From the NCBI GenBank assembly GCA_032358255.1, contig JAULBX010026663.1, positions 7,388-44,960 of the forward strand: 37,573 nucleotides of DNA, given 5' to 3'. Shown here one piece after another: positions 22 through 35,253 of the stretch. Position 1 is the first letter of the stretch, and the number at the start of each line of letters is the position of its first letter. The notes beneath the pieces are model-generated. The model had not been told where the DNA came from. It saw only the letters and a program-made list of their open reading frames with translations, and did no database searches. The translations under genes were made by a program, and so were the position numbers. Source of the DNA: Heterotrichella gracilis (Eukaryota > Sar > Xanthophyceae > Tribonematales > Xanthonemataceae).

Positions 22-180
22 GGGAGTGCTGGAGCTGGAACAGGTGTGGTGTGGTGGTGGCATTTACATGTTCAAGGTCCTGTAAAACTTAAAGCAAAAT
101 AACTCAAATCACCGTTATCACTATGGTGGTGGTGGCGGTGGTTGTGTTGGTGGCGGCGATGGTGTTGGTGGTTGTTGGGG
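22..180 (+). repeat. SEC8 intron: exon-end copy plus GGT/GTT-rich simple sequence
   Basis: Positions 26-43 repeat the last codons of the SEC8 exon that ends at 263 (CTGGAGCTGGAACAG against CCAGAACTGGAGCAG), each followed directly by GTG. From about 120 to 180, and again at 264-330, the DNA is an imperfect GGT/GTT simple repeat. It translates as poly-Val/Gly and is not coding in my reading. Confidence 0.5.
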
Positions 181-185
181 TGGAG

Positions 186-3100
186 GAGGGGGGGGAGTGG
201 CTGGCGGCTGTGGATCACCTGGTGGGGGGGGCGGCAAAGATTACGGTGCCAGAACTGGAGCAGGTGGGGGGTGGTGTTGGTGTTGGTGGTGTTGGTGGCG
301 ATGGTTTTGGTGGTGGTGGGGATCAGTGGGGATTGATGGTCCTGTGTCTGTCCCTCCTACTGTGCCTCCCTGCACTACTACCTTACCAAACCTGTGTGGT
401 AAAGCAGGCTTACCATCCATCAATGCATGGTTACCGATTCCAATTTTTGACACTGGGCCAAATTAGTGCCCTAAACCCGTAACCCTAAACCCATCCCGAA
501 GTTACCGCCTTGGAACTGGAAACCCCTTCTGACACCCTCCCCCTTCCCCCTAGGTGGGCGCGCTCAAGTTCTGCAAAGAGGAGATGGCCTCCCACCGCGC
601 ATCCCTGCAGAAAGGCATCATGTCCCAGGTGGAGAAGCAGCTGTTCAGTGTGGACGGGGGGGGCAAGGGGGGGGAGGAGGGGGAGGGGGGCGCTCGCCTG
701 CAGGCAAACGGTGCGGGGCGGTAATTGTTGTTGTTGTTGTGGTGGTGGTGGTGGATGTGATGGGTGTGTTGTCGGGCGAGCTGTGGGCATTGTAGGGCAA
801 ATACGATGCAGGGCTGTTGGGATGATAGGTGTGCACCGTCAATGATTCCCACTTCCGCCATCAAAGATTTCATCCACCGCAGTCAAAGAACATTCATTTG
901 TCCCTTGACCCTCCCCATTCCCCCCTTCTCCAGGAGCCCAAACCCCAACCAGCGGCCCCTCCCCAGTCAAGCGCAAGGGACATGGCAGAGCGCCATCGGG
1001 CGGAGGTAGGGCAGCAATGGAAACCCTTGCTTAGGGTTTTTGCGAGACCCTCCTTGTTTGAAAGCGTGTACCCTGAGCCTGGCAGCACCCTAGCTTAGGG
1101 TTTCGCGCCAGCACTTGATGCAAAATTTGGTGCATGAGTATCACGCCTCCTGGCTGCATACACATTGTGCTGCCCCAGTATTGGGTTGAGTGTTGTGGGT
1201 TCAAGGTTTAGAATTAGTCCTTGCTGCGAAGCACCCCTCCCCTGCCTTACATCGAGGGTTTGATGTAGGAGTTAAAATTCAAGGGTTTCCAGTCGTGCCT
1301 GTTAGGGTCGTTAGGGTTCTCACTTCCCCCTCCATTGTGTCGATGCGCAGGGGAGGGGGCACTTGGGAGGCCCGGCATCACCCATGCTGACTCACTTGGC
1401 AAGCAACGAACAGAGTCGGTCAACTCGAAAAGGTAAACAAGACACTCAGCAATCCACAAGACACCAACCAAAAACTGGTGTAAACCTTTATGAAATGGTT
1501 GGCCTGTCCATTGGCCATGCAGACCATCCAGCAAAATGATTAATGGTTCCGAAAGGATAAACAATCATGTGCACACAACTCAGCCTTTTCACAGTCACAG
1601 CTACCCAAACCCTGAAATTCCCTGGCTCTTACCCTAAACCCTAAACCCTAAACGAGCGAATGGGCAACCCTCGGGTGCAGGCCAGCGCGCAAGATGGGCG
1701 AGGGCGGGGTCCTCCCAGGCTTCAACTCCAATGAGGTGGCTGTGGGTCTGCCTGTGCTGGTGGAGTGTGTGATGAAGCTGGGGGCGGCCAACCTGGCGTT
1801 CCACACGCTCAAGAAGAGGCTGCCGGGCAATGTAGGTGGCTGGAAACCATGGTAGAAAATCCTAAACCCTGGAAAGACCGTATGGGAGGACATATACCAC
1901 GCGTGGCCACTGCGCATGGATCTTGGTGACTACCACCGCAAGAAACCCTACAAGCCTCACTCACCCGCCGCCTCCATCCCCATCCCCCACCCCTACCCCA
2001 CACACCACCCTTTACCATGTTTTGCACCCTCCGTATCGCTCACAAACCATAAACCCTAAACCCCACAAGCTTCCTTGCCACTCTACTCCTCACCTCCCAC
2101 CACCGCCCACCCACCGCAGGTCCGCGGCTCCATCGTGCGTGCATTGGAGCAATGCAAGCCTGCCTTCATAGGCCTTGACCTGGCTCTCGCTGGGGAGGCG
2201 GTGGGGGGGCTGGTGCCTCAGGCGGTGGCGGGGCCGGTGGGGGAGATGGTGGGGGTGGTGTTTGACCACTGCCTGCAGGTGGGTTTGTGGGTGGGGTGGT
2301 GGTGGTGGTGGTGGAAGGAGTCGGTGGTGGCCATGGCCTGCTTGTGTATGGGTATGGTTTGGGTGAGGGACGAGCGGTGCTTTATTGGTCCCTGCCTTTG
2401 CAACTGAGTGCGGCGGAGGTGGTGAGGTGGGCTATGTGTGTGATGTGTGGTGTTATTTCACTTTCGGATGATGTATGATGTTCTTTTTGTGGAGCATCTT
2501 CCCCATGCAAAGATAACTACAAAAAAAGCCCAGAAAAGACCATGAAAATATTCTGAAAAGACCTACAAAAATGATCCCCTGTTCCCGCAGGTCCTGTCCC
2601 ACTCCTCCACACTGCATGACCCCAAATACCTTAGAAAAACCCTAGAACCCCGATCCCTACCCCTATCCACCTCTCGCAGGTCCTGTCCCACCTCATCACC
2701 CTCCTCCACACCCTACGAGACTGCAAAGCACCCCAGGCATCCTCTGGCTTGGACGTGCTTGCTGGAGCCGGGGGGGTGGCCGCTGGATTAGCACCCCTTG
2801 CGGTAGACCCTGGGTTTGTGGCAAGGGAGGCGGCATATTTCTGGGAGGTCATCCAGGCTGAGGTGCAGGGGCTGCTGGGGGGGTTGCTGCAGGCGGGTGG
2901 GAAGGATAAGGAGGGCGCGGGGAGGGAGCCAGGTGCGGGGTCACGAGTACATGGTGTGAGAATGACAGTTGTGCGTTCCCATTTTCTCTACCATGGGGTT
3001 CTGCTTTGAAGTAGCTGGGATGGAAAAACGCACCGCTGGGATGGAAAAATGCACCACCACTTTGGCAGCCCCTATCCCATTGTTGGCCGCCACCATTTTA

Positions 3101-6100
3101 CCCCCCACCCAGCACACACACACACACAGACAGTGCATACCCCACCCCGCTCCCCACCACCCCACCCCAGCCCACCACCCACCACCACCCGCAGGTGCCT
3201 CCCCCAGCGATGGCGGCGCCGCTCCTTCCGGCACAGCCCCAGGGGAGGCGGCCCTTGCGTTTTCATTCGACATCTCCCCTGATGCCGCGCTGCCTGCATC
3301 GGGAACCAATGCGGTGTCCGCACAGAATGAGGTGGGTGGTGGGAGTGGTGGTATGTTGGGGAGTGGAAGGGATGGGGGTGACTTATCCTCCTAGGAACGT
3401 TGCCCCCCCCGATTGTTTTTCAGCAGCCCACCTGGCCGCGACACATTGACACCTGGAAAGTAAAGGAAACGTTAATGAACGCAGGTTGGGTAAGAAGCAG
3501 TTATGCACAGCCGCTATAAAACGCATAAGAAACCCTTGAAAAGCTCCAAATACTCAGGAAAACCCTTCAAAAAACCCTAACATCCTCCCCATTATTCCAG
3601 CTGAACCATGTGGCCAAGCTGCACGAGGTGCTGGGCGAGTACCGCGGCTCCCCCTACCTGGCCTCAATAATATACCACCCCATCCTCCAATTCGTTGAGA
3701 GCGCCGAAATGATGCTGCTGGCTGGGGCTGCGGTGGGGGGTGGGGGGAGCGACCTGGCGGGACCAACGGGGAGTAACCCGCTGCAGGGTGGCGAGAGCTT
3801 GCTTCAGTTCATTGAGAACTTCATTCGGATGGACTTTTTGCCCACGGTGTATGTGGATTTCAGGTAATCGATAATTCAGGATTTGATTTAGGTTACAATG
3901 CAGTACTTGCAGTATGTGGGATTTCAAGTAATTGCAGAAATTATCAGGTAATCGATCGTTTCAGGATTTATTGAGGTACAATGCAGTACATGTTGTATGA
4001 TTTCAGGTCATTCATGCACCGCGATTGATGCACCACATTGCGATTGTGGTTGTAATGGTCATTGCTGCCGTAATCGCAACTCCCTCCCCTACCCACATCC
4101 GCGTCTCACCTACTCACATCCCTTTCACCATGACCAGGGCTCGATGCACCGCTGCGCTGGATGGGCCAGAGGCGTTCCGACCCAGAGCAGTGCTGCGGGC
4201 GTCCTACCAGGTAACAAATACACTCTACCCGTGTGCTCATTATCCCTACCCAGCATGTGCCCAGACCCAAAAACCTGCGTGTGTGCCCCAAAAGCCCTGC
4301 ACAGTGTTTTCCAGAACTCTCACCTTCCTCCGCCGCTCCCCACACTCTGAGGTTAGCAAGGGTCGCCCAGAGCTTGGCGCCACACCGATGCCACAAACCA
4401 TAAACCCTACGGCTAAATAAAAAACCCTTCTCCTAACCTTTCACCCTTCACCCCCTTGCGTGTGAGGTGAGCAAGGGTCGTCCAATGCTCTGAGATGCAC
4501 TGATGCCCAAAAAGGAGATTCCACCCTTAAGGCTACATCATAGCACTTGACCCTAACCTTCACCCTTTCCCCCTTGGCAGTCTGAGTTGAGCAAGGGCCG
4601 CCCCGTACTTGGCGCTGCGCTTGCTGCCAACAAGATGATACAGGAGCTGAGCCACTGGACCAGCCGCATGCCAATGTTTGCCAGCCACCTCAACGGTGGG
4701 TGGGTGGATGGTGGCTATTGGGATGGGATGGGGTGGCAGTACATGGCGGCAATCCTTAATACGTCATCCAGATTTCAACCTCAATCCTGTACTGTCCATC
4801 GTCGACAGTAGGCACGATGGAGAGCCATAACCCACACCACTTTGGCATAAGCTCCATCACCGGCATGGATGGAGGATTGGCGAGGTCCCATAGTCAAGGG
4901 GCTTTTAGATCCTCACCCAGACCCCATTCCGCCCCTCAGACATGATTTTGGGTCAGTGATGGAGGCCTCCCAAACCCTAACAAAAGCCCTATCGCGCATT
5001 CCTATCATAACCCCACTTCCCCCCCAGGCATGATGGAGAACCTGCTTGGTTGCGTGATCGGGGCCTTCCAAACCCTAACAACACCCTATCACAAACCCTA
5101 TCATAAACCCTACCGTAAAACCCTATTTCCTTCCCCCAGGCATGATGGAGAACCTGCTTGGTCGCGTGATCGAGGCATTCCAGGCGCAGGTGATGCGGGT
5201 GATGGGCAGGCACAAGTCAAGCCAGCTGGCGCAAGCAGAGCAACTGGTCAAGCTGCTGGCTCAGGTGGGATGGGCGGGTGGCTGTGGTTGTGGTTGTGGT
5301 TGTGGTTGTGGTTGTCGGGATTATGCTGAAGGGTTTTGGAAGGGTTTTGCTGGGGTGATGGGTAGGCAGTCCTCATGACCGCTGGGGTCACTTGCAGCTG
5401 GGTTGGGTGGTGGAAGAGTGGTGTTCTTACTCATTTTCAGGTTCTTACTCATTTTTGCCATTCCCACTCCCCCCGCAGGAGCCCCAAGCCGAGCTTTTGA
5501 AAGACCCTGTGTGCTTTGGGGATCCCCGTCAGCCCGACATGATCAATGCGGCGGCCAAGGTGTTGGCCACAGGTAAGGGGGTGGGTGTGTGGGTTGGGCG
5601 GGTGGCGCATTAGGGTGATGATGGTGGGTTGGGGCAGGGGAGGTGATGGGCTGCTAATTTTGTGAAATGGCAGGGAAGTATTCTGGAATATCATGGTGAA
5701 AATGCAGCGTGATCTGTGTTGTGATTGTGGATGATGCGGCAGCCAAGGGGATGATCACATTCCTCTTCACCCCCACACCTTTCCGCAGGTTTTGCCAAGG
5801 GTGGCGAAGAAATCGAGTGCGACATATTGGATGTGCTCCTGCAAGTGGCGCCTGTGGAGGAGGAGGACCTGATTGCGGGTAGTGGTGACACGTCCCCCCT
5901 GGTCACCCTGGCGGCGCTGTCAGACTCCCTGGATTACATCATCACATGCGTCACAGCATACACAAAGGCGCAGGTGAGGGGTTTGACCAGGGTTTGGATA
6001 TGGTTTGGACGTGCTTGCCTCATGCATTGTGGGCCACCTGCGGTGCATGTGCCGCGCACTGCCAGGTGACCCAGAAGGAACCCTACCAAAAGCCCTGCTG

Positions 6101-7989
6101 TAAAGCCTGTACAATAAAAACCATCAAAAGGAAATCCTGTTACCATCCTGCGGAAATGCAAAAAAATGCACCCAAACCCGAACTAAAAAACCTTGCCAAA
6201 TACCCTCCCTTTCCCCCGAGCTGCAGGGTGCGGACGCCCTGCTTCCCTCCATTCACGCGATGGGCTGCACCACCTGCTGAGGGTGTGCCAGGCGCTCTCG
6301 GGCAGACTTTCCACCCACAAATCTGCCATAACCCCTACCAAATTCTACACCAACAGCCTCAACAATACCCCAACAGAAAACCTACTCAAAATCCTCCCTT
6401 GTGTCCCACCCGCAGGCTGCGGACGCCCTGCTCGCCTCCAACTCGCGCGACGGGCTGCACCACCTGCTGAGGGTGTGCAGTGCGCTGTCGGGCACCTGCT
6501 GCCGCGCACTCAGGCTGGACGCCATCCTGCTGCTCATCTTCTTCCTCCAAGAGCTGCCTGAGAGCGTGTATGTGTGCAAGGCTGAGGAGGCAAAAGAGGT
6601 GGACGAATGCATTGGGGCGCTGTCAAGGTGAGAGTGATTCATTTGGGGTGTTCCTGGACCCTTGGGTAGGGTTCTGTTTTGTCTGGAAGTCGCGCTGAAA
6701 GTGAGGGCACTCCCAGTGTGTTGCCACACACCCCTTGTGCCCAGAACACATAACAGCCCCAGTGTTTTGTACTCCCATCTGCTCCCTTCCCAGGACATTT
6801 GCGAGGGCTGAGGAGGATTTGTCCCCCTACCTGCCCCCCCGCAAGCGCACCTACGTATTTGGACCCCTGGCCACATCCTCGGCGCGCATCTTCATTTGGC
6901 TGCTGCCAGACCTCCAGGTGGGTAGGGTGTTTAATTTGGGGCGGGGAGGGCGTTAAAAATGCGGCGTAACATGCACGATTACCTAATAGCAACCACCACA
7001 GTGGGTGGGTATACGCTGCGGTCCTGGCGTGTGTATGTGTGTGTGTGGAGGGGTGTATCAGAGATTACATTGCTGTTTGTATTACTGGTGCAATGCAATA
7101 CCACGTGCCTCATGAAGTGGAGCGCGTGTGGCCTATGCACTGCCCCATGCGCTGCCCACCACTTCCCCACCCACCACCCACCCACCTTCCGCAGGAGATC
7201 AACCAGTTCGGCGTGCAGCGCGTGTGCCGCATGCTGTCAGTCCTCCAACCCGCCCTATGCGCCCTGGGTACCTCGGGGGGTGCATTCAGGCCAGATGCGT
7301 CGCGCCTCTTTGAGCGGGCCCGCACCTACTATGGTCTGCTTGGGCTGAGCTACGAGGATCTGCTGGTGTACTGCAAGGACCACTGGGGGGAGTTCACGGC
7401 TGATGAGTTCATGAACCTGTTCCAGGTGAGGCGAGCGAGAGGGGTAGGGTTTTGGGTAGTGAAGTGGGAGTTTTCTGGGTGGGATTTGGTGGTGTTCTTT
7501 GGGGTAGTTTTTGGCTGCTTGGGCTGGGAGGATCTGCTGGTGTACTGCAAGGACCACTGGGGGGAGTTCATGAACCTGTTCCAGGTGAGGGGAGTGTTTA
7601 GGGTTTTGGTTAGAGAAGTGGGCCTGGTGTTTTTTAGGGGATTTTTCCGTGTAATTTCGGGGTGCTTTTGGAAGTTGCTACTGTCTGGATGGACTGGGCC
7701 ACTGAGGAGGACCACTGGGGTGAGTTCACTGCCGCCGAGTTCATGAACCTGTTCCAGGTGGGCGGGAAGGGGGATGGGGTGATTGTGATTAAGAAAACAG
7801 GTGGTCGTGTTGTGGGGTTTTGGGGTATATCCTGGGTTGTTAGAGGCTGCTTGCACTGGGCTTTGAGGACCGTAAACCCTAAACCCCCCCGTGTGCCAGG
7901 TGACCGTCCCTGAGCGCCCTGTGAACGACGACGAGCTGCACATGGCCAGGATAACCCTAGCCACGCTGGCGGAGGGCAACGGGGAGTAG
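186..7989 (+). CDS. SEC8: Exocyst complex subunit SEC8 (EXOC4), 5'-partial, multi-exon
   Basis: SEC8 is a subunit of the octameric exocyst, which tethers secretory vesicles to the plasma membrane. Exons I read: about 186-263, 554-720, 934-1005 (weak), 1681-1831, 2120-2278, 2680-2932, 3195-3331, 3601-3863, 4138-4210, 4581-4695, 5140-5264, 5479-5572, 5789-5973, 6416-6627, 6794-6917, 7195-7425, 7900-7989 (TAG). All have GT-AG borders and compatible phases, giving about 842 residues. Matches to plant SEC8 by recall: ELEQ-VGALKFCKEE (plant LQ-VGALQDVRSE), the PVLVECVMKLG block, ILQFVESAEMM with FIENFIRMDFLPTVYVDFR, KGRPVLGAALAANKM, and the C-terminal INQFGVQRVCRM and ARTYYGLLGLSYEDLL blocks. Plant SEC8 is about 1050 residues, so roughly 200 N-terminal residues are off the window. 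Exon 934-1005 is kept only because its length preserves phase. The start of the first exon is unclear in a GGT-rich stretch. The family call is firm; the exact borders of the first three exons are not. Confidence 0.88.
2583..2620 (+). repeat. Truncated copy of the SEC8 exon start at 2680
   Basis: The acceptor and exon start CCCGCAG/GTCCTGTCCCAC are seen here about 90 bases before the true CTCGCAG/GTCCTGTCCCACC at 2680. The copy keeps the CTCCTCCACAC stretch but lacks the bases between. It then runs into spacer with CCTTAGAAAAACCCTAGAACCC. It is an intact but probably decoy acceptor. Confidence 0.75.
3112..3128 (+). repeat. (CA)n microsatellite in SEC8 intron
   Basis: A perfect AC dinucleotide run of about eight units, followed by a CCCCACC-rich pyrimidine stretch that leads into the acceptor at 3194. 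It is simple sequence with no coding content. Confidence 0.85.
4345..4510 (+). repeat. Two decayed copies of the SEC8 exon start at 4581
   Basis: The true exon begins TCTGAGTTGAGCAAGGGC and runs into a CGCCCC...CTTGGCGC block. Copy one (4345-4391) has CTCTGAGGTTAGCAAGGGTC followed by GCCCAGAGCTTGGCGC. Copy two (4458-4508) has TGTGAGGTGAGCAAGGGTC. Both lose frame. Each is followed by a spacer with AACCATAAACCCTA or ACCCTTAAGG, then a similar CACCCTTCACCCCCTTG pyrimidine tract. The period is about 115-120 bases. Confidence 0.8.
4935..5085 (+). repeat. Two decayed copies of the SEC8 exon start at 5140
   Basis: The copy at 5022-5075 is nearly identical to the true acceptor and first ~45 exon bases (CCCCCAGGCATGATGGAGAA). 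It then breaks into CCAAACCCTAACAACACCC. The copy at 4935-4980 is older: it keeps CAGACATGAT, GTGATGGAGGCCT and the same CCAAACCCTAAC break point. The true exon continues where the copies break. The two copies therefore share a break point and differ in age. Confidence 0.85.
5283..5316 (+). repeat. (TGTGGT)n minisatellite at the start of a SEC8 intron
   Basis: About five perfect hexamer units follow the donor at 5265. Read as protein it would give alternating Cys/Gly or Leu/Trp, and it is not part of the SEC8 match. Confidence 0.85.
6221..6307 (+). repeat. Dead copy of the first ~80 bases of the SEC8 exon at 6416
   Basis: An acceptor-like CTGCAG is followed by GTGCGGACGCCCTGCTTCCC, matching the true exon start GCTGCGGACGCCCTGCTCGC. 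The match runs through CTGCACCACCTGCTGAGGGT to CTCTCGGGCA. One base is missing near 6255 relative to the exon (ATTCACGCGATG against AACTCGCGCGACG), which shifts the frame into TGA at the CTGCTGAGG position. This is the longest exon copy in the SEC8 introns. Confidence 0.88.
7517..7775 (+). repeat. Two copies of the 3' end of SEC8 exon 7195-7425, donor included
   Basis: Copy one, 7517-7584, repeats GAGGATCTGCTGGTGTACTG through the donor, but lacks an internal 12-base piece (the ACGGCTGATGAG region). Copy two, about 7707-7758, keeps GAGGACCACTGGGG, an in-frame version of the internal piece, and TTCATGAACCTGTTCCAG/GTG. Each copy carries its own GTGAGG or GTGGGC donor and a TAGGGTTTTGG-type spacer. 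Because 12 bases is four codons, copy one is open in frame. Confidence 0.88.
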
Positions 7990-8962: not shown

Positions 8963-11900
8963 ATGGCTATGGAAACAGGAGGTTCCTTTCAGGTGCCCGA
9001 GGACGGCAACGAGGACCGCTGCGGTGCGTGCTGGGCAGACGGAAATGGCTTCTGTGGCGAGCTCATCTGCTGCGAAAATTGCCCTGCGGCGTACCACCCT
9101 TCATGCGCAGGATATGGTGGGTCTGCATTGCTTTTTGGGACAATGCATGCATGCTGTGAGGGGAGAGCCGGGTAAAGGGTCAGACCCGGTTGTGCCGCAT
9201 TGGACCATATTCGACGGAGGTGGTTTTTTATAGTTGTGGTCTGTATTGAGTTTCATGCGTCTATTTGAGCCAATAGCTGCTGGCTGTGGTGGGTTTTGCG
9301 TCCCGTTTATTGGTTCCTTATGCATGCATTGGCTGGTAAACAAAAGTTCTTTGAGGGAAGCACAATCCGACCCCCAGCCTGCGCCAACCCGGCACAAACT
9401 CCAAGGAACGATTCATGAAAGGTGGTTTGTATTGCTTCTTGAAAAGGAAACTTCCGCCAGTCTTGAGGGCCTTGCAAGTTGTGTGCTGAAAAGAGGTGAA
9501 AGTAACCCCCCGTGTATGCTTCGTCGGCTCTGTATTAGCAAAGGTGTTGCGTAGGTTGTGATCAAGGTTTTTGGTGGGGGTCAAGAGGTTGTGTGTTGGT
9601 GTTGTGAAGGGGCCCTGGTAACATTGCCTACTTTTGTGTAGGCTTCACCGCACTTTTTCTCGAGTGGGTTACACCTTACTTCATTCTTCATTCAATCCAC
9701 ACTGCTTTTTAATGGTATCTTTCTTCCTTGTTGGTGCAGCCTCCCTGGCCGCGGTCCCCAGTGGCCAGTGGCAGTGCTAGGTATCAGCCACGTCCCCCAG
9801 GCAACCTGCCCCTTCACACCTCACCTCGTTTCATCTAACCCATTGTACTCCCTTGTTTCGCAGCCTCATTGGGCGAGGTCCCTGAGGGCGAGTGGCAGTG
9901 CTGGGCATGCTGCAAGCAGACAGGGACACCCTTCAGGCACCCCACACGACCGGTAAGGGTCTGGGGAACAACCCTAAAACCCTGGAAAAACGTTTTCAGA
10001 AAAGCCCTGGAATGGAAGGTTGCATCGTTAAGCTACTTGTCTAAACATGTCTACAATGTCATGTAATTCAGCACCCCTGCCTTGCACAATCAGCGTCAAG
10101 CAGCCGTACCTTGGCACTTCTAGTACCACAGTTTGACTTGGGCAGGCAGTAATGCTCTGCTATGTATATACATTGTACGCACCCACTTGCACAAATCTCT
10201 CCTCCCTCCCCCCAGGTGCCCATCAACGGGGAGGGGACCCTGCTGCGTGTTGCCTCTGACGACGTGTGCGAGGTGTACTGGGACGCCAAGGTGGTGGCGG
10301 TGATGGGGGGCAGCCTCTTCCTGCTGTTCACGGGGTTCAAGGTGGGGGGTGGGGGTGGAGGGGAGGGGAGGGGGTGTGGGTGTGGCAGGAGAGGAGGGGG
10401 GGTGAGGACCCCTCCGTATCATTTTGGAAATAATGGCTGTAACTTTGTGCATCCCGGGGGTAGCATGCACCAGCAGCAGGTGAGTATCACCATCTAAAAA
10501 CAGGAACTCGGGAATCACAACACCACCAAAACCCCCCTGAGGTGCCAAATTCAAGCCCCTTCCTCCATCCCGGCTTTCCTGATGCCTACTCCCCCCACAC
10601 TCCGTCCTTCTCCACAGGACAATGCCCCCATCACCCTCCCCATCGACAGCCCCCGCATCTGGCACGGCACTTTGGATTCCAGGGCGTGGCGCCGTCTGGG
10701 GGAGTCCCAGGAATTCAGCCCAAATTCGCGCAGTTTTGCGGTGGACTACAGTAGGGTGGCAATGCCGACGGGGAGGGCGTCCGCCTCCCTTGGGGGGTCC
10801 GCAGGTGAGGGAAATGTGCCCCGGGGCAACTGGAGGGGTAGAGGGGGTTTTGGCCGGAGGACTTGGCTACATTAGTGGCGAGTTAGTCCACCTCATTCGT
10901 GGGAGAGGGGGCAATGTGGCAAACATGTGGGGATCTTGGGTAGGCTCAAAATCTGTGAAAAGTAAACCAATTTCACCCAGGGAATGTGCATGTTACCGCA
11001 GGACCCCATGCCCCTCCCTGACACTCCACCAAAATGGACCAGGAGGATTGGCGTACATGTACGTATCCAATGCCTGTTTTCCCCTCATTGTACCCTCCAA
11101 CCCCTGATTTGCAGACCTGCCATCACAGCCCGGGGCGGCCAGCGTGGTGGGTGGGGATGGCTCAAATGCGGCGCATTCCGGGGCGCAAGCTGCACCCCGG
11201 GGGGCCGTGGATGAGACTCCCACTGGCCCCTCCCCCCACCCGCAACCTGGGGCGCTGTTGCCATCAGCTGACAACCCCGATGGGCCTGAAAACCCTAATG
11301 GGGCTGAAAACCCTAATGGGGCTGAAGACTCTAGCGAGGCGGAAAACCCTACTGGGGCAGATCTGGAGGAGATAGGTGCGCTTATGGCATCCCTTGCACC
11401 AGCAGACTAGAATTTAGTATACCAGGCTATTATTATTTTTTGGTTTAGCAATTTGTGAGGTCCTCCCGCTTGCACAACCCTAGTGGGCTAAAATCCATTG
11501 GACGCGTGATGGCCCACGAAGGGCGAGAGGTAGGTGCGTCGGTAGGTGCGTGCACGCCAGGCCCTGCAGAACCCCAAGGCAGGGTTTTGGCAACACACTT
11601 GGTGGTGGTGGGGTCACTGATTTTGCCCAAGGCAGGGTTCTTGTACTGGCCCTAATGTTGGGTTTTACACACTCACCAGGACCTTGAATTCGAATTTGAA
11701 ATTCGTTTCTTCCAGGGGAGCAGGAGTTCATGACCCGCCTGCTGCAATGGCACGCCGATCAGGGCCTGGAATTTGTGCCCGCCCACCTCCAGAAGCGCCA
11801 AATCAACACATTCCGGCTGTGGAAAGAGGTCATGGCCTATGGGGGCTATGACGCGGTAAGAGGCACAACCTCAAAATGGGGAATGTATGTTCGCTTGGTT

Positions 11901-19310: not shown

Positions 19311-20132
19311 CCTGGTGTTACTCAAGGACATAGAGGAGTGCTTTTCTAGTATGTTATGGGGTTAAATCTTCACATATACGTATACCAAGTTTTCTGCAGG
19401 GGGGCCGGCACTACCAGGGGGGATGCTGTGAACACAGGCATGAGGTGGCAGTGGTGGTTGCCTTGTCGGGGGAGAAGGGGAGGGGTGCAGGTCTAGGTGG
19501 GGTGGAGGTGGGGCTTTCCTGCCAAAGCTGTGATCCCTGGCTTCCTAGGGAGTTACACCAGGCGTTGAACACATTCAGATCAATTGTGGGTGTGCAATCA
19601 CCGCTTTGCTGGTCGGTATACAGTTTGAAACGCCACAGAAAATACGCTTGACAAGTAGTTTGAGTAGGATAACCACATCGTGTATCAACAGGATGAAATA
19701 CGGTAACAAGATTTTATACAACAAGATTTTATTATTACAGGATTTTATTTGACAGTCACATTCAGGGAGCCAACCCGGCCTGGCGAGACTGTAAAATATC
19801 TTTGTTAAATAAAGATGATAAGGTTGAGAAACGCTCCATTTTTTGTGTCACAAACCTCGCTGAGGCACAACAGTCGGCATTAAAGTTCAGGTAACTCGAG
19901 GGCGGAGCTGGGCAAAGAGCAACGTTGACTCGCGCCAACCATGCAGGAAAAGCAAATCACAATGTTCTTCACCTAATCACTAATTGTGCACAACAATGCC
20001 CAACAAAAAATCCAATTAAAATCCCACATCCAGCCGATCAAGATCAAGAAAAAACCACGTTCACATCTCCAGCACAAGATCATAAACCCCGCCCCACCGC
20101 CTGCCTTGTCTCAACCAATTGGAAGCTTACTG
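19311..20132. other. Convergent intergenic region / 3' UTRs
   Basis: This lies between the stop of the chromatin gene and the stop of the minus-strand MYND gene. It is more A+T-rich than the flanks, with an ACTGTAAAATATC near 19787 that could serve as a TGTAA-type polyadenylation signal for the upstream gene. ACAAGATTTTAT occurs twice in tandem near 19707-19732. I see no exon. Confidence 0.4.
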
Positions 20133-25286: not shown

Positions 25287-28200
25287 CTATCCCACCAGGC
25301 TGCCCTGCACGTCTATCACAAAGCGGTAGTGCACCTTGCTCTTGTGCATGCGCTCCATGGCCTCGTTGACATAGCTTGCGGGGATGACCTCGGTTTCGCA
25401 GGTGATGTTGTGCTCCCCGCAGAAGTCAAGCATCTCCTGGGTCTGTGCCACCCCTCCGATGAGGCTGCCTCCAATGGTCTTGGAGCCTGGAAGAGGGGCG
25501 GGGAGGGGGGAGCGTTAGTGTCAGGGAAGAGGGAATGCAAGTGTGCAGAGGTAGTGAGGGTGGTGAAGGGGAACAGGGGAAGAATGTCAAAGGAAGGCAT
25601 GTGGATGCAAATCAGCTACCACTGCCATTGAAAACGGTCCTCCCATCTCAAATCCGCTCCACACACACACATCACCATGCATTCCCTCCCCTGCGCCCCC
25701 ATACAAATCCCCCGGTTTTGAGCTGCATGGGGTCTGAAGGCAGCTCTAAACCCTAAACCCTCATTCCCTCCCCTGCTTACCCCGTAATGAGGCTCCCCGC
25801 CTTGAGATGCATGGGGCCTAAGCCAGCCCTAAACCCTAAATCCTGAACCCTCATTCCCTCCCCTGCTCACCCATGATGAGGCTCCCCGCCTTGAGCTGCA
25901 TGGGGTCTGGGGGCAGCCCCACCAGCACCAGCTTCCCCCTTGGCTTCAGCAGCGTCAGGTATGGCTCCAGTGAGTGGTTGGCGCTCACTGTGTCAACGAT
26001 GCCGTCAAGGGTGCCAGCAATGGCCTGGAAGAGGGGAATGGGGGCGTGAGTGCATGATTCTCAGATTCTGGCCATGGAGCCATTTCTCCTCGATTAATTC
26101 AATAGTACATGGGGTTGGGGGAGGGGAGGAAAAAGGTCATCTATGACGGAGTGTGGGTCGTGGCCCCAACCACAGGGTAATTTCACAGAGTATGATCTCG
26201 AATCGTCACTGATCACCAAAACGCGCGTTTTGGTGTAACAGTCTGGCGCCTGTGATTCCGTGATACATATTATCACAAGGGGTGAATAATACCTTCATGG
26301 CATCCTCATTCTTCGTGTTGATAAACGAGTCCGCCCCCAGCACCCCCACCGCCTCCTCCTTTTTGCTGTCACTGGTGCTCAGCACAGTCACTGTGAGGCC
26401 CAGCGCCTTGCCAAACTTGACCGCCATGTGACCCAGACCCCCCAGGCCAACCACCCCTAGGGTCATGCCGGGCTTGTCTAGCCCATAGGCTCGCAGGGGG
26501 GAGTATGTGGTGATGCCGGCGCATAGGAGGGGGGCGGTTTTGGTGAGGGGCAGGTGGGCGGGCATGTGGAAGACGAACCTGGGGAGGGGAGGAGACTGTG
26601 TTTGGCATGGGCTGCTGGGTATATTTAAGCAGATCAAATTATGCTCTGATTTGATTCCATGCACCCTAGATTTGCCTCCACGCATCTATACGCATCTAGC
26701 CAGCCAGCAACTCCCCCCGTTTATTCCATATAATGCAACCCGCCCTGCAGCTTGCATGCATGTGCGCCTGTATGATGGGACTCGGCATGTGCCCCTACCA
26801 AGCACATAGCGCAACGGAAAGAAATGCTTTACATTTAATTGTATACTTATAATTCTGTTGCCGTCAAGTGCATGTCATGACCCAGCCGAAACTAACAAGC
26901 ACTACCCTCCCATTGGTGCCCATGCACCCATGCACGCCATAGACCCCTCCCCCTCCCACACTCACTTCTTGTTCACCACCACAAAGTTAGAGTAGCCTCC
27001 CATGGTGATGCTGCCATCCACCTCCTTGCTGTTGTAGGTGAACACGCTCCCCTTGCAGAACTGCTGCTCCTCGTCATTGCACTGAGAGCAGGATTGGCAG
27101 GAGTTAACCAGGACGCCAACCCCCGCCACGTCGCCCGCCTTGAAATTCGTGACATTTGGGCCCACCTCGGTCACGTACCCTGCAATTTCATGCCTGCGGG
27201 GATGGGCAGGCGAAACCTTGTAAAACAGCCATTTTGGGGGCGGATAGGGAGGGTCAGTGGCATAACACCATTTTGTGGCATTGGCCTGCATTCCACAACA
27301 CGGCAGCCATGACTTCCAGAATTTCATGCACAAGCCTAATAAACGATTCCCATTCACCATTCCACATGTGATTTAAATTGCGATGGAGGGTTTTTGGGTC
27401 ACGAGCCCTTCCACAGCAATTGAGGGCTCAGGGTTTATCATGTTGAAACCTAAACAAGGGTCCCAAATATCTCACTCACCCAGGCACCATGGGATACTTG
27501 CTCCCCTTCCACTCATTCTTCACATTATGGTAGTCAGAGTGGCACATGCCCGAGGCCACAATTTGGACCCTGACGTCATCAGGCCCCACATCGCGCCGCG
27601 AGATCTTGAAGGGGCTCAGCAAACCGTTGGAGTCGTGGGTGGCATAGGCTACGCAGTTGCCTGGGAAGGTCTCAAACCCGGGGGTGGGGGGTGCGGCAAA
27701 TGCGGATGCAAAGTCCTCAAAGGACAGCTCCTCTGCGGGACAAGGGAGGTGTGGTGGAGGTGGGGCGGTGCATGGGATGGAATGGGAAGAGAATCCATTC
27801 TCCTGGTGATGTATCATATTGCAGCGGGCCTTTCCTCACTAGGGTTGTTCCTGGTTTGGCTGCAAGGAACTGTGAAGTGCATCCTAAACCCTAACCCTAA
27901 ACCCTAACCTTTGGATCGGCACCCTCTTAGGCTTCTTGACACCTATTCATCCACGCGTCATTAAGCTTACATATTGCCTTAGCCCAGATGCAAAAATATT
28001 TCATGCGCAGACACACATTTTGTGACAGATCAACAGCCAGACAAGTCTGCCACCATAGCATTGCAGTGCCCCACCTGCATCCTTCACTTTGCCGCCGGCA
28101 TATGTCTCTGCAAGCTGGGCATACTCCTGTGACAGGGAGGATGGTCAACCCACAGTTGCTAGCACTAGCGAAATAGTATTGTGTCACCCATCATTTAGCT

Positions 28201-28658
28201 AGTGATTAACCCGGGTGACAGGGATGACGTAAATGACAGTTCGTCTCTTGCTCGTCTACAACAGACCAAAATCCAACCACCGAAGCCCTGAAATGCTTCT
28301 GTTATCCGTTTGGGCGGTGCACTGGTGAGCAAGGGTGCTACACCCCAAACACACAAAGACGCTTGCCACCCTTGCAATAGTTTGTGCACATCCCCACGAG
28401 GCTCGCACAACGGGGTTCAACACGCCCATGACAAGTATGCTAGTACCGAGCTTTATTACTGCAAAGCACTGTCATTGTTTCGCGATCAACCACCGCCACG
28501 GCTTTAGAACCACAGGTGGGTGTGCATGCCACCACTGTCCATACCTGCTCTGACACCACCCCTTCAGCGTTTGGCTTGCACTGCACGTACAGCGCATACT
28601 CACGAGGGTGCGCGGCGATGGCAGCGGGGGAGGGCTGGCCGATGCGGACACGAGGCAT
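25287..28658 (-). CDS. Zinc-dependent alcohol dehydrogenase, CAD type, copy A
   Basis: This oxidoreductase interconverts alcohols and aldehydes with NADP(H); the substrate is not predictable here. Seven exons in transcript order: 28658-28545, 28126-28075, 27732-27480, 27193-26966, 26578-26293, 26024-25871, 25486-25287, all GT-AG and in phase, 428 residues. Catalytic zinc ligands: Cys119 in GMCHSDYH, His141 in GHE (split across an intron), Cys235 in [12 protein letters not shown]. Structural zinc: Cys172, 175, 178, 186 (CQSCSQCN...FCKG). The cofactor fold is [14 protein letters not shown] at 260-273, followed by STSDSKK, which favours NADPH. The CAD core normally starts near my residue 84, so about 83 residues (MPRVRIG..., then [12 protein letters not shown]) are an added N-terminal extension. 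I see no clear transit peptide in it. Tandem paralogue of the gene at 29134-32757. Confidence 0.93.
25676..25860 (-). repeat. Two copies of the exon 6 donor edge of ADH copy A
   Basis: On the plus strand the true edge reads CTGCTCACCCATGATGAGGC and continues to TTGAGCTGCATGGGGTCTGG. Copy one (25763-25825) has CTGCTTACCCCGTAATGAGG and TTGAGATGCATGGGGCCTAA. Copy two (25676-25745) has TTGAGCTGCATGGGGTCTGA. Each is joined to CCCTAAACCCT and to the same CATTCCCTCCCCTGC tract. Confidence 0.88.
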
Positions 28659-29133
28659 GACTGCAGTTCTTTGACCAGCTTTACACAGGTTTGATCAGGT
28701 ATACTCAGTTGCCCGAGGTCGACTCAGTGGACAGGATCAAACAAGCAACCCACAATAGCAGGCAAGGTTCGTCACTTGATGATAGCAGTTCAGAAGTGGT
28801 AAGTATGGGGTACTAAGGGGTAATTATGGGATACTGGGGTTGCACGCAACTGTGGCTACTTTATGTGCTGCAAGCTGCAGCATCCACACAAGCAGGCAAG
28901 GGACGCAAAACCCTCCCCAAGGGTTCCCCGAACTCTAATCAATTAAACTCGAAAGAAAAAGAAAAAAACAAACGCAAAAGAAACTTGAACCTGTCCCAGC
29001 AACATTCTACCTCGAGTCATTCACAACTGATTTATTCAGCTCTATTCCTAAGCCTCTTGAAAGACATGACAGCTCTGCCGATAGGACTCCAATTTCCTTC
29101 CCCTGCCATTCCCCCCCCAAATACAGGCCCACT
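28659..29133. other. Intergenic region between the two alcohol dehydrogenases
   Basis: It holds the promoter and leader of copy A (see next entry) and the 3' UTR of copy B. An A-rich stretch, GAAAGAAAAAGAAAAAAACA, lies near 28952. No coding exon seen. Confidence 0.5.
28707..28795 (-). promoter_or_regulatory. Upstream block of ADH A conserved with ADH B
   Basis: About 50-135 bases before the start codon, GAGGTCGA, AGTGGACAGGATCA, CACAATAGCAGGC, AGGTT, GTCAC and AGCAGTT occur in the same order and similar spacing as in 32786-32870 ahead of copy B. It is either retained promoter or leader sequence from the duplication, or under selection. No named element is recognised. Confidence 0.55.
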
Positions 29134-32100
29134 CTATCCCACCAGTGTGCCCTGCACATCAATCACAAAGCGGTAGTGGACCTTGCCCTGGAAAATGCGC
29201 TCCATGGCCTCGTTCACATAGCTTGCGGGAATGACCTCGGTTTCGCAGGTGATGTTGTGCTCCCCGCAGAAATCAAGCATCTCCTGCGTGGCGGCAATGC
29301 CACCGATGAGGCTGCCACCGACTGACTTGGCGCCTGAAATGGGGAAGGAGGGAATGTTAGTGTTAGGGGAGGAGGGAGAGCAGAGGGGTTAGTGGGGTAT
29401 AAGATAAGGGGTTATGATGTGTCGGGAAAGGGAAGAGAAGTGTGAAGCGTCTTGTGCACGGGTGCAGCTCATTCTATATGTGTAGCTGAAAGAGCTTGGC
29501 ATACAAAAAAAGGGACCAAACAGACCAGACCCCATTCCACCCCAGCCTTTCCTTCCGCTGTTCAACCATCACATGCCTCTCCACATCCCTGCACGGGGTC
29601 TCAGAGCAACCCTAAACCCTACCCTGTCCAACCCAATACCCTACTCACCCATGATGATGTTTGACGCCTTGAGCTGCATGGGCTCTGAGGGCAGCCCCAC
29701 CATCACCATCTTCCCCCTGGGCTTCAGCAGCGCCAGGTAGGGCTCAAGTGGGTGGTTGGCACTCACGGTGTCGATGATTCCATCAAAGGTGCCTGCGACG
29801 GCCTGCCACAGGGGAGGAACAGGGGGTGAGTGTGAGGGAGGGAACGTGAAGCACAAGAGTGAGAGTAGTGCGAATAATGTGCGTGTTGATTGACTCAACG
29901 CGGCAGGCCTAGGATAACCTCCATATGCGCACGCATACCTTGCAAAATGCCAATATACATATGCATACGGAGGTCACTATTGTGAATGCACAATGCCAAT
30001 GTTTCTCATTACATATATAAATTATACTTGGGGTAAGACACTACCTTCATGGCCTCCTCGTCCTTAGTGACCAAGAACTTGTCTGCCTTCAGCACCGACA
30101 TGGCCTCCTCCTTCTTGTCATCGCTGCGGCTCATCACCGTCACAGTCATGCCCATGGCCTTGCCAAACTTGACCGCCATGTGGCCCAGGCCCCCAAGGCC
30201 AACCACGCCCAGCTCCATCCCTGGCTTGTCGATGCCGTTGACCTTGAGCGGGGAGTAGGTGGTGATGCCGGCGCACAGGAGGGGCGCGGTTTTGAAGAGC
30301 GACAGGTGGTCGGGCATGTGGAGCACAAACCTGGGGAGGGGGCAGGAGGAGGTAGGGTAAGTAAGGGAAAGGGGATATGTTGTGTTATTGGCCCTAACCT
30401 GCGTCTAAATGTGTCACATCCCGCTGCCCATCATGCAGTTCCCTCCATATCCTTCCCAAAAGTAAACCCCAAGTCCCAACCGTAGCACATGGCAGCCCCT
30501 TGCTGTTGAACCCACCCTACCATTCAACCACCTGCTGTAAATCTGCTTCCGCCGCTCATTCCCCTCCTATCCCACATGTTCTTTTTGCCACTATATACAC
30601 CTTCTGGCACACGGTGGACCAGCAAACCCTAACCCCACTCCACCCTGCCCACACTCACTTCTTGTTCACCACCATGAAGTTGGAGTAGCCTCCGTTAGTC
30701 ATGGTGCCGTCCTTGTCCTTGCTGTTGTATGTGAACACACACCCCTTGCAGAACTGCTGCTCCTCGGCATTGCACTGGACACAGTCTTGGCAGGAGTCCA
30801 CCATGCAGCCCACCCCAGCCGAGTCGCCCACCTTGAAACTCGTGACATTCGAGCCCACCTCGGTGACGTACCCTGCAATTTCGTGCCTGCAGGGAAGGGG
30901 AGGGAAACCTGACAAACTGTGACATTCTGGAGCCCCCTTGCTAAGGTAACCTCAATGCTACAGCCTGCAAGTGGAGGGTTGAAAAGGGCAACAATAACTT
31001 GCGCCATTTGAAATACATATTTACACATGGTCCACAGTGCATCTCAGTGGCATAATTTATTATGGAATTTGCAGCTGGAGGACGGAGTAGTGCAAAGTTG
31101 ATGTCATCACTGTAGCATCTACAGACAAGTGCAATCATCGAACTGATAACCCAGCCCACAGGTGCACGCCATCAATGCCCTGCTATACCCCACGTACGGG
31201 TATTCATGGGTTCACTCACCCTGGAACCATTGGGTATGAGCTGCCACCCCACTCATTCTTGATACTGTGGTAGTCGGAGTGGCACATGCCGGAGGCCACA
31301 ACTTGGATCCTGATGTCATCGGGCCCCACATCGCGCCGCGAGATCTTGAAGGGGCTCAGCACACCCTTGTCATCGTGGGTGGCATAAGCCACGCAGTTGC
31401 CTGGGAAGGTCTCAAACCCGGGGGTGGGGGGTGCGGCAAATGCGGATGCAAAGTCCTCAAAGGACAGCTCCTCTGCGGGACAAGGGAGGTGTAATAAGGG
31501 GGTTGCAGGGGAAATTGGATTGTTTTCTGCTTCTTTCAGACTCTAGACAAGAACCGCGTCCCCCAGAACTGTCTTTTCGGTCTTCAGATGAATATGCAGC
31601 AGCCTTTCAAACTGTACCTATAAAACTGCCCAAGTGGTTCTATCAAGCTAGTTACTGATATGGACTCCTCGCTGTGGATGCAAAGCACAACCTCAACACT
31701 CGCGCGGAAACACTGTGTGCACAGTGCGAACAACAAATTGTTATTGGCTTAGGGTTTTATCATGGGTTTCCCACCCCATGTGAAACCCTCACCCAATACT
31801 GTGCTGCACGGTATTGGCCTACAGTTGACTGGTGTCACCAGGGATCACGAGGTTGCAAGTGAACTATGGCAAACTGACAGGCGTTGCAACTGGCAGCCAA
31901 GTTAAAACACCTGCCATATGCAACTAACATGCAACCACAGCACAGCAGTGTCCCACCTGCATTCTTCACTTTCTCGTTGGCGTAGGTCTCTGCAAGCTGG
32001 GCGTACTCCTGGGACAAGAAAAAAGCGGGGATCAACAACAGCCCAGAAGAATTGGGCAAATAGTGACCAAGCTTGTCACTAGCGTTCAGGCTGACCACCT

Positions 32101-32757
32101 TGTGTTCGGGCTTGACTAGAAGGACGTGCTCGTAAACACCAGCCCTAACAGCTCCAAAACCTTACCAGGCACCCACGAGGAACACAACCAGTCAAGCGTG
32201 CATCTAATTATTCGATGCACATTAGGACAAGTCAGGCATGTCCGATAATAACAGGCCACCCTAACTTCGGTCCCAACTGCCGATGTCGACGGCCACCACA
32301 CCTTCTACGCGAAAGCCTTGGAACCGCTTAAACCACTTATTGTGGCAACCTTTCACAATTGCAGTGCTCAGCAACGGGCCACACCCTCCACCACACAACA
32401 CGGGCAGTGATGGCAGCATGGCCCGCTAGCCCACCCCACAGCCCTTTGCAGCCCCAAAAACAGCTAGCGCTTATACAACACAGCGCCAAGCAAGCCGAAC
32501 ACAACTAAGTTATTTACCCACCCACGACGGGTGCTAGTCAACACGTATTTATGCGCAAATCGCCCGCCCGCAGCGGCTTCAAATGCTGGCCACATGGCTG
32601 GTCCACCCTGGTGGCATGCCGCCTACCGCCGTCTAGGTCTTACCTGCTCTGACACCGCTCCATCAGTCTCTGGCTTGCACTGCAAGTAAAGCGCGTACTC
32701 GCGAGGGTGCGCTGCGATGGCGGCGGGGGAAGGCTTCCCGATGCGGACGCGAGGCAT
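29134..32757 (-). CDS. Zinc-dependent alcohol dehydrogenase, CAD type, copy B
   Basis: Paralogue of the gene at 25287-28658, with the same seven exon lengths (114, 52, 253, 228, 286, 154, 200) and 428 residues. Exons in transcript order: 32757-32644, 32008-31957, 31472-31220, 30886-30659, 30330-30045, 29802-29649, 29333-29134. All zinc ligands are kept ([19 protein letters not shown]...[16 protein letters not shown]), as is [14 protein letters not shown]; the following strand reads SRSDDKK. Differences cluster at surface-like positions (for example NSCQS to [16 protein letters not shown] to SIKNEWGGSSY), consistent with a functional, diverged duplicate. The N-terminal extension is shared, so it predates the duplication. 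No breaks seen. Intron sequences are mostly unalike, apart from the patch described under findings. Confidence 0.93.
29571..29648 (-). repeat. Copy of the exon 6 donor edge of ADH copy B
   Basis: CCCTGCACGGGGTCTCAGAG followed by CAACCCTAAACCCTACCCTG lies just past the donor of exon 29802-29649. The exon itself has GCTGCATGGGCTCTGAGGGC. The copy lies in the same intron and at the same exon edge as those of ADH A. Confidence 0.65.
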
Positions 32758-33647
32758 GGTTGCAATGGTTTGGTCAAGACTCTGTTGCCTGAGGTCGATC
32801 GAGTGGACAGGATCACGGGGAAACGCACAATAGCAGGCGAGGTTGGTCACGTAGATGGCAGTTTACAATAGCAGGTAGCCAATGCAATGCTTTGTATGGA
32901 GACGAAGGGGAAGTGGTGGGTGTGGTAGCGCTCACTTGGCTGATATGCTGCCTTATGCAAACAGCTGCAGCAAAAAGCGGGCAGGTGGGCGAATGGTGAT
33001 TGGAAGGTGCGAAGAAGTGACGTGGAATCACATACGTCCAAATTATATATGCACCGGGATCCTCCAAAATCCCCAGAAAAAACTATTCTTCATGCTGGTG
33101 GGCCATGGCCTGAAGTTTATGCAGTCCTTGTTCAAGACCAGCTTGAACGCTGACGCTGCAAGAGTAGTGAACCAAGGTGATACTTGTGGGAACCTGTTGA
33201 CAGGGGCATGCAAGACACGGCTTGGTAGTGGCTTGTGGCAGTTGAAATGCGCTGTGGCGCATGCATGTATTGTATGGCTCAGGTTGCATGCAAATTTGGC
33301 AGCGCACTATCAGTTTGGTTTGCTGCGGTGGTACAACCCGACACCGTTCCAGTGCTTATAGCGTGCAACTCCTCGCTCTGATACTCAGTGCTGACCCAGT
33401 GTGGAGTTGTTGGGCGGTCCAACAGCTTTTCCCCTTGGATGTAAAGTTGGACCATTTGGTGGGTGAGAACGCGCAAAAGTGTTTCTCACGTCTTCTCTTG
33501 CTATCATTAACAAGGTGAGATATACACTAAAGAACACATGGTGATAGCACACCGCTGGAGTAGAGGAGGATATACCTTGCCTTGTCCAAATGTTGGCCAG
33601 ATCCTTAACAGCCACAGATCTGTACTACACAGCCGGTAATTGGTATA
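32758..33647. other. Divergent region between ADH B and the F-box gene
   Basis: The ADH B upstream block conserved with copy A lies at 32786-32870. From about 32880 to 33640 I see no exon I can support. Short upstream exons of the F-box gene may be here, since the F-box exon lacks a start codon. ATTATATATGC at 33043-33053 is A+T-rich and TATA-like. Confidence 0.4.
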
Positions 33648-35253
33648 TTGTGGCTGGTTGAACTCTTAGTTAGCCAGTGTGTGCTCCCTGACCACCTGCT
33701 GCAGCGCATCCACAACCTAGTGTGGGCAAAGGAAGGGTTTCTCCGCAATGACCCAAGAGGGCGGATGCAGCTGGTGTGCAAGCGCTGGCGCAGTGCCCTG
33801 GCTGGCCCAAGTGAGGCATATGAGCACATGCCTTGTCTGCTGGTTGTCCGCCAGCCGATGGTCGTTTGGCTGTGCCCCAAGCTGGCAGCCATCAAGACCT
33901 TGTTCATACCAAATGGCACTCCAGAGCAGAAGCTGCAAGTGCTCTCCAAAATCCTAAATTCTAACGCATAACCCTGCAGTAATGAAGAGCAGGGCTTGCA
34001 GGTGCTCAACAGTTGCTCTGCGTTTCTCACAGCGCTAGCGCCTTTTTTTGTATTACTTACAAGCGCGTTTCTCACGAGCGCTTCCCCTTTTTTGTGTTAC
34101 CTGTGTCTGCAACATTCCTTTTCTCTTGTTCTCTGCCTTGCTTTGTCGGGCTGCGCAGCATGCTTGTATGCCACAGCCGCTTCTTGTTGAAAGAGTTAAG
34201 AGGTACTCTTGACCTATTTTGCTCGCTTGACAGCCCCGAGGAAATCAGCAGCAACACTCCAGCGTCCCTCGCCTCTATCGCCTCCTTCAGAACCCTAAAC
34301 CCTAACCCCACACCCTGCAGGTTCTCAACAGCCTCAACCCAGCATGCCTCACCGCCCTCACCTGCACCTACTTCGGCCAGGGCAAGGGCCAGCTGCTTGC
34401 GCCCACCTTCCGCCTCACCTCACTCACGCGACTGACCCTCTATCTGACCTGCACCCAAGAAGAGGCGGCTCCCGCAATGCCCGCCGTGGCAGCGCTGGTC
34501 AACCTGGAATGCCTTAACGTGAGCGTCACTACGCCACGCCCCAGCACCGTGCACTGGTGGCCGCAGCTCCCCACCCTTCCCAAGCTGAGGGAGGTATCGG
34601 TGATTGTGAACGGGGAAGACTTTGTCTTAATGCTAGCCCACCAGCCAGCACTGGTGAGCCTGGACTTGGTTACAGCAGACCATAATCAGAGGGCAACGCT
34701 TGGCACCTCCCTGCGCCAGCTCACCCAGCTGACCAGCCTGACTGCGAAGGGCTTGTCTGCGCCACATGCCTGCTTCCCTACCTCGCTGCAACGCCTTTAA
34801 CTTGGTAGGGGCTGGGGCGGGGAGCAAGCGACTGCCATGGAGCTCCTCCCTGAGCTTGTGCACCTGACATCGCTTGATCTGGAATGGCCATGGTCTGGCC
34901 TGCAGCTGTACCCCGCCCTTGCCAGGCTCACCAACCTCCAGGAGCTGAGCATCTCTAAGTTGTCACGGCCGCTGGTGCTGCCAGTCGTGCCCAGCCTCAC
35001 GCTGCTCAAGGCATGGCATGGGTGTGGTGTGGAGATGGAGGCGCCGATCAACCCCAGCTTGCGCATGGTGCAGTGGGGCAGGGGGGTATCAGATGCCCCA
35101 TTAAGGTACATCGACGCACCCGGTCCACACACGGACGAGGTGTGCATTAAGGGGCGTCATGGGAGGTACAGCATGGGGGTGGGAAGGGATGGCAGTGTAG
35201 TGGTGCTTACATGCAGGCGCTTGTCCAGAGCTCCATTTGAGTTTTCTGGGTAG
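33648..35253 (+). pseudogene. F-box/leucine-rich-repeat gene with one in-frame stop
   Basis: F-box proteins bring substrates to SCF ubiquitin ligases. Exon one (from about 33678, acceptor TTAGCCAG, to 33938) encodes an F-box-like helix set: LPDHLLQRIHNLVW and LVCKRWRSALAGP. Exon two starts at 34321 behind CCTGCAG, in phase 0. It encodes leucine-rich repeats (LTSLTRLTLYLTC, LPKLREVSVIVNG, LTQLTSLTAKG, LVHLTSLDLEWPW, LARLTNLQELSIS), ending at TAG 35251-35253. The frame is broken once, by TAA at 34798-34800. The 36 bases after it and the 139 codons beyond stay in the same frame and continue the repeats. No intron that would remove the stop is evident. Either a recent pseudogene allele, a truncated protein ending after the fourth repeat or so, or a sequence error. 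No start codon found. The exon-one donor (CTGCAA/GTGCTC) is inferred from phase. Confidence 0.68.
33990..34110 (+). repeat. F-box gene intron: acceptor-edge copy and a tandem repeat
   Basis: GCTTGCAG/GTGCTCAACAG at about 33993-34011 copies the true CCTGCAG/GTTCTCAACAG junction at 34321. It is followed by two imperfect units of GCGTTTCTCAC...GCGC...CCTTTTTTTGT (34019-34053 and 34068-34100). The true acceptor is preceded by AACCCTAAACCCTAACCCC. Confidence 0.65.

Follow-up and report, generated by a model that had tools for sequence, protein, structure and literature searches.

Internal tandem duplications of the FLT3-ITD type are short, sometimes lie across exon-intron edges and contain filler letters; they are somatic, belong to one locus and have non-telomeric filler. 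In mammalian genomes, interstitial telomeric sequences are described as insertions of telomere repeat at double-strand breaks, with the target duplicated at 6 of 130 loci in rodents, 4 of 25 in primates and 3 of 66 in horse; the frequency of such insertions in human introns is described as matching the fraction of the genome that introns make up (PMC2246262, PMC7215372). Intron gain by tandem duplication of coding sequence has been characterized, in the account used here, by an intron start that resembles the start of the downstream exon and an intron end that resembles the end of the upstream exon (PMC2891723). Moreover, intron gains accompanied by short repeats are described in Daphnia, where they were attributed to break repair (PMC3488318). 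Here, we analyzed a stretch of 37,573 nucleotides from the xanthophyte Heterotrichella gracilis (hereafter, the window; positions 7388-44960 of contig JAULBX010026663.1, assembly GCA_032358255.1, 68.5 Mb in 903 contigs), in which exon edges are partially copied into the adjoining introns, frequently together with telomere-type words. No system of this form was found in the literature, as represented by open-licence papers.

The exon-edge copies of H. gracilis resemble FLT3-ITD in their short tandem form and in their filler, and differ in that the filler is telomeric and many loci are involved. With the mammalian insertions, as far as these are portrayed in the two papers cited above, they share the genome's own telomere repeat in short arrays inside chromosomes, some of the mammalian arrays having a direct duplication of the target. 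Unlike those insertions, in which duplication concerns a minority, the duplications and motifs described here cluster at exon edges, the arrays reach several copies and many of them lack the exact motif. In H. gracilis, the exact motif lies between copies, where a target duplication would place it, in 20 of 38 arrays, in 9 of which the motif also lies beyond the outer copy. Local tandem duplication involving splice-site sequence is common to our case and to the intron-gain model as outlined above, with the difference that existing introns are enlarged here. Neither signature of that model was found among 198 introns tested (0 and 0). The Daphnia gains are comparable in showing direct repeats at introns that would stem from break repair in both cases; in contrast, new introns arose there and the portion of that account considered here does not mention telomere filler, which is common in H. 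gracilis.

The sample consisted of the window and 20 stretches of 10 kb located on 16 contigs, 237,573 bp altogether, with L001-L008 excluded from all counts. As the first-pass annotation had been based on the window alone, evidence from the other stretches of this genome is independent of it. Work with gene models was carried out on 227,573 bp, that is, the window and 19 stretches, leaving out L019 (35% G+C). This 10 kb stretch has no local repeats, the others have a G+C content of 52-57%, and it is perhaps organellar or foreign. The rbcL family (PF00016) gave no match across the assembly, which thus seems to lack the plastid genome. A home-made gene HMM, initiated from two genes spliced by hand and refined over the sample in repeated rounds, predicted 204 introns, of which the 198 with both flanking exons present and a length of at least 60 bp were tested. 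The HMM exons agree with the hand-spliced dehydrogenase exons, except that the two genes were fused and their facing ends clipped, and its errors include a 4,299-bp intron (18298-22596) that is counted among the 198. An own-edge copy in an intron was defined by a score of at least 36 against exon-edge templates of 120 nt; the thresholds were not fixed beforehand.

Self-comparison of the window detected 25 direct pairs at most 1500 bp apart. Over the 237,573 bp, 87 direct pairs within 600 bp of each other were found, covering 11,974 bp in 66 clusters, while the controls gave 1 inverted pair and 0 pairs after block-wise dinucleotide shuffling. Because telomere-like words alone could produce such matches, the search was rerun with these words masked, allowing at most one mismatch in each heptamer; it returned 81 direct and 2 inverted pairs in 56 clusters. 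Copy identity in this masked search ranges from 69 to 100% (median 88%), by which the copies look like decayed duplications and not like assembly errors. Thirty-eight of the 56 clusters join an exon edge to an intronic or unannotated copy, 9 are intronic, 7 lie in unannotated DNA, 2 are partial and 0 are wholly exonic.

A copy of the intron's own exon edge was detected in 35 of the 198 introns (8/43 in the window and 27/155 elsewhere), as compared to 0/990 shuffled introns, 0/987 swapped introns and 0/198 antisense edges, the last control being one that may be inflated by the aligner's scoring of N against N as a match; the exons used in the other tests contain no N. The outcome named in the first-pass annotation as a refutation, self-matches no commoner than in shuffled introns, clearly did not occur. 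With a looser score of 30, copies were observed in 24% of the introns, versus 0.3% of shuffled introns, 0% of swapped introns and 1% of antisense edges. As regards mobile elements of the introner type, the swapped introns show that the edge copies match their own exon alone. In the window, 17 exon edges (12 from the HMM or hand-spliced genes and 5 hand-set), chosen after the self-comparison results and from the list in the first-pass annotation, were compared with their adjoining introns after masking of telomere-like words, with 200 first-order resamplings per intron, and 15 of them exceed all resamplings (Table 1). That annotation had counted about 14 such edges in the window and taken them for a genome-wide habit; the habit is borne out by the introns outside the window, and the window edges largely hold, apart from the second dehydrogenase edge (39/200 resamplings as good) and the edge of the gene it named F-box (1/200), neither of which passed alone. 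In the first gene of the window, which it named SEC8, no Pfam family was found. Overall, within the sequence sampled, the exon-edge copies of this genome are real and extend beyond the window, and they are bound to edges more tightly than could be shown before.

Table 1. Exon-edge arrays and dehydrogenase genes of the window, with the number of intron resamplings that were as good as the observed match.
Feature	Positions in window	Strand	Resamplings as good
Acceptor-edge copy 2583-2602; exon start 2680	2583..2691	+	0/200
Donor-edge direct repeat 3860-3933 and 3944-4012; hand-set exon end 3864	3860..4012	+	0/200
Acceptor-edge copies; exon start 4581	4343..4603	+	0/200
Acceptor-edge copies; exon start 5140; AACCCTAA-type sequence at 5068-5132 between nearest copy and exon	4948..5182	+	0/200
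Acceptor-edge copy 6223-6277; exon start 6416; intron without exact CCCTAA/TTAGGG	6223..6467	+	0/200
Donor-edge copies 7515-7570 and 7708-7764, TTTAGGG in between; exon end 7425	7336..7764	+	0/200
Acceptor-edge copy 9723-9784; exon start about 9864 (hand-set)	9723..9908	+	0/200
Acceptor-side repeat 14891-14958 and 14987-15054, CCCTAA motifs; hand-set edge 15033	14891..15054	+	0/200
Two acceptor-edge copies, 16617-16666 and 16741-16778; exon start 16851	16617..16891	+	0/200
Donor-edge copy 17067-17103; exon end 17008	16966..17103	+	0/200
Acceptor-edge copies 17268-17290 and 17367-17386, CCCTAAA in between; exon start 17445	17268..17475	+	0/200
Donor-edge copy 17748-17795; exon end 17648	17617..17795	+	0/200
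Acceptor-edge copy 17881-17950; exon start about 18020 (hand-set)	17881..18048	+	0/200
Tandem 77-bp units: donor edge (exon end 22597), two copies and telomere-type words	22402..22644	-	0/200
First dehydrogenase gene: open across all seven hand-spliced exons	25287..28658	-	
Intron 6 of the first dehydrogenase, with TTTAGGG arrays (coding sense) and donor-edge copies both young and old; exon end 25871	25680..25917	-	0/200
Second dehydrogenase gene: open across all seven hand-spliced exons	29134..32757	-	
Second dehydrogenase intron 6 start: TTTAGGG and possible old copy, not significant alone	29573..29648	-	39/200

We then focused on the anatomy of the copies. Of these, 21 are of acceptor type, beginning 0-9 nt from the edge and ending 23-53 nt inside the exon, and 28 are of donor type, extending 23-90 nt back into it. 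Such depths would be in line with a need to retain about 45 bp of intron at acceptors and only a few at donors. Tandem duplication of whole exons was rejected, as the copies end at these depths within templates of 120 nt and wholly exonic clusters are missing. Where a copy aligns to the edge, AG is kept in 15/17 and GT in 12/12 cases, which supports the earlier statement that the splice site is included in the copies; as a test for functional decoys, splice letters kept in 27/29 copies compare with 82% expected from decay (p = 0.15), and the copied sites may be functionless. The smallest spacing per cluster is 90-120 bp in 26 of the 56 clusters and 155-221 bp in 15, with none at 133-154 bp, and units within an array repeat in register. 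A common break point, also reported at first pass, does exist within an array; it is expected there because the structure is tandem. The copy nearest the exon had been described as often the best preserved, and its score does surpass that of the farthest copy in 7 of 10 multi-copy arrays, with 1 tie and 2 in which it is lower. Moreover, introns with copies have a median length of 444 bp versus 292 bp for those without. This greater length fits the growth of introns by duplication that had been proposed, without giving the direction of the relationship. Elsewhere in the window, an inverted 51-bp repeat (19744-19792 and 35454-35504, 84% identical, 15 kb apart) is perhaps a dispersed element, and about five 18-bp tandem units with AAACCCTAA-type letters lie at 11267-11358, in the region of the bromodomain/Agenet/ARID gene.

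As the exon side is conserved, duplications at edges remain recognisable for longer, and detection was corrected with artificial 100-bp duplications that were planted and decayed by substitutions only. After this correction, an even spread predicts 17% of the clusters at exon edges, whereas 38/54 were observed there (about 12-fold), a count from which the 2 partial clusters among the 56 were dropped and which rests on the HMM gene models. When only introns are compared, 38/47 clusters are at edges versus 34% predicted (about 8-fold), and among the youngest clusters (identity of at least 92%) 12/14 are. The edge excess is large despite its dependence on gene models and despite allowed exon depths (20-55 and 20-90 nt) that, like the end of the detection curve, were chosen after seeing the extents of the copies. 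Placement of breaks linked to chromatin or to splicing may be guessed at as its source.

Regarding the filler, CCCTAAA is the telomere repeat of this genome: assembly-wide, eight perfect units are matched 33 times on 11 contigs, on 6 of them in CCCTAAA orientation and no more than 200 bp from the contig start, and on 5 contigs reversed. PMC8226300 describes TTTAGGG as the telomere repeat ancestral to green algae. Genome-wide, the 14-letter double telomere repeat occurs 5,629 times and its backward reading 5 times, and the window contains CCCTAAA 34 times versus 5 expected (0/100 shuffles as high). Without any prior choice of words, the most enriched hexamers in the repeat clusters are those of the telomere repeat. 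CCCTAA or TTAGGG is present in 35/66 unmasked clusters; with masked detection, 54 of 291 motifs lie inside clusters as compared to 22 expected from rotations (1/1000 as high). Motif density per kb is 2.76 in introns, 0.59 in unannotated DNA and 0.11 in exons. The motif is found in 28/35 copy-bearing introns versus 63/163 others, a difference of which length explains part, and in 12/16 versus 35/97 when introns of 250-450 bp are considered. A concentration of the motif near copies, implied by the first-pass annotation, is likewise seen at the level of single edges: a copy is present at 19/76 edges that have a motif no more than 75 bp away, and at 19/300 edges that have none so close.

Since filler should separate the copies and be absent outside the outer one, the numbers of arrays with the motif at the junction only and on both sides were compared. 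With the strict motif, the 38 exon-edge arrays comprise 11 with the motif at the junction only, 9 on both sides, 0 on the outer side only and 18 on neither; with the relaxed motif these numbers are 10, 14, 1 and 13, and for single-copy arrays under the strict motif 6, 6, 0 and 16. The junction-only and outer-only counts favour filler for part of the arrays. Compared with mid-intron sequence, telomere resemblance is higher at the junction (p = 1e-8) and also in the outer flanks (p = 0.0005). These telomere-like outer flanks and the 9 arrays with the motif on both sides count against pure filler, as a pre-existing motif predicts. At some junctions the break letters are, by eye, in register with the telomere repeat; filler quality and copy similarity show no significant relation (rho = 0.23, p = 0.18, n = 35). 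Telomere filler in the arrays is frequent and not constant, less uniform than was first written: the telomere-type spacer is concentrated at junctions, as claimed, while its exact form is limited to just over half of the arrays.

Near edges without a visible copy, the motif was found at 23/153 acceptors and 27/153 donors, versus 7/153 mid-intron positions. As relics of invisible duplications, such motifs find no support at acceptors (p = 0.44) and weak support at donors (p = 0.007). The relaxed motif at acceptors is mostly CCCTAA-like (11 vs 0 at array junctions and 41 vs 7 in copy-less introns), and at donors it occurs in either orientation (C 8 and G 7 of 21 junctions; 32 vs 29 in copy-less introns). 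The orientation bias at acceptors may reflect selection against TTTAGGG directly before the acceptor, as TTTAGGG contains AG. The interval from -40 to -14 before the acceptors of the window is enriched in CTGAC, CTCAC and CTAAC; the branch point may accordingly have the form CTNAC.

Two paralogous genes for zinc-type alcohol dehydrogenases also lie in tandem in the window (25287-32757) and have an identical seven-exon structure, the protein having as best full-length relatives green-algal proteins with 57-58% identity. In intron 6 of the first gene, the order is donor, TTTAGGG array, young edge copy with a donor-like site, second array and older copy. The exon adjoining intron 6 is identical between the two genes in 130 of 154 letters. 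Intron 6 of the second gene weakly matches the old-copy region of the first and matches none of its younger copy, and, unmasked, it outmatches all 179 other introns against that old-copy region; the masked half of this comparison, spoiled by the scoring of N against N, is disregarded. This comparison of the two sequences is suggestive only of one duplication before the genes split, and of another later on, in one gene and at the same place.

Four observed features call for an explanation, namely the anatomy of the copies, their departure from chance, the bias toward edges and the link with the motif. The reading we prefer, with a probability of about 0.45, is that short local duplications come from break repair, often with telomere-repeat filler, and are expanded by slippage and filtered by splicing. 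Short tandem duplications, with a frequent spacing of 90-120 bp, would arise repeatedly at exon-intron edges. Telomerase may add the cell's own telomere repeat to a broken end before joining, which would leave filler between the copies, as has been proposed for mammalian telomere-repeat insertions with target duplication. A duplication spanning the edge would survive if the exon-adjoining copy retained a complete splice signal, splicing then presumably taking place at the inner site, and the outer copy would become intron and decay. Once two copies are present, slippage or unequal exchange could add more of them, with the same break point and with the filler carried along. The breaks, the role of telomerase, the order of events and splicing at the inner site are what we infer from the arrays as they now stand. 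A more far-reaching version appears doubtful to us: a standing mutational process at exon-intron junctions, in which the repair of breaks at splice sites would copy roughly 100 bp of the edge and add filler made by telomerase, continually making decoy splice sites and lengthening introns from their edges.

The order of events could also be the opposite, telomere-like words near edges, in part branch-point-like CTAAC/CTAAA before acceptors, being fragile or prone to slippage and seeding the duplications. CCCTAA is indeed enriched 15-45 bp before acceptors, copy-less introns included (4.5 and 4.1 per kb versus approximately 1-2 further in), CTAAC and CTGAC are enriched in the interval given above, and the both-side arrays point the same way. 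A motif that came first, however, does not lead one to expect 11 junction-only arrays against no outer-only array, and the two orientations at donor junctions are unexplained by a splicing signal; on balance, we consider this order unlikely, though not strikingly so. Less probable still is a minisatellite-type tandem duplication whose rate is uniform and whose edge pattern results from selection and exon conservation. About half of the arrays lack the exact motif and edge copies do remain detectable for longer, as such a process implies, but the 8-12 fold edge excess persists after measured detection, 12 of 14 clusters of the youngest class lie at edges, and telomere words head an unbiased word list.

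The copies are local and in sense direction (81 direct vs 2 inverted pairs), and unspliced edges are included, all of which would also follow if breaks were patched by reverse transcription of nascent pre-mRNA, favouring splice-site regions. Tandem duplication nevertheless yields an identical picture without RNA, and we regard such patching as very improbable. Least of all do we expect chance similarity or assembly error to account for the arrays, given controls at or near zero and the range of copy identities; chance similarity itself is ruled out by the shuffles, the swapped introns and the inverted-repeat controls.

Intron growth and the origin of new splice sites have so far mostly been inferred from old events. 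In this one genome, about one tested intron in six records duplications of various ages, together with their break points and filler. Should such duplications still be forming, fresh ones could be captured in cultured cells, and the roles of telomerase and of splicing in the placement of breaks would be directly testable.
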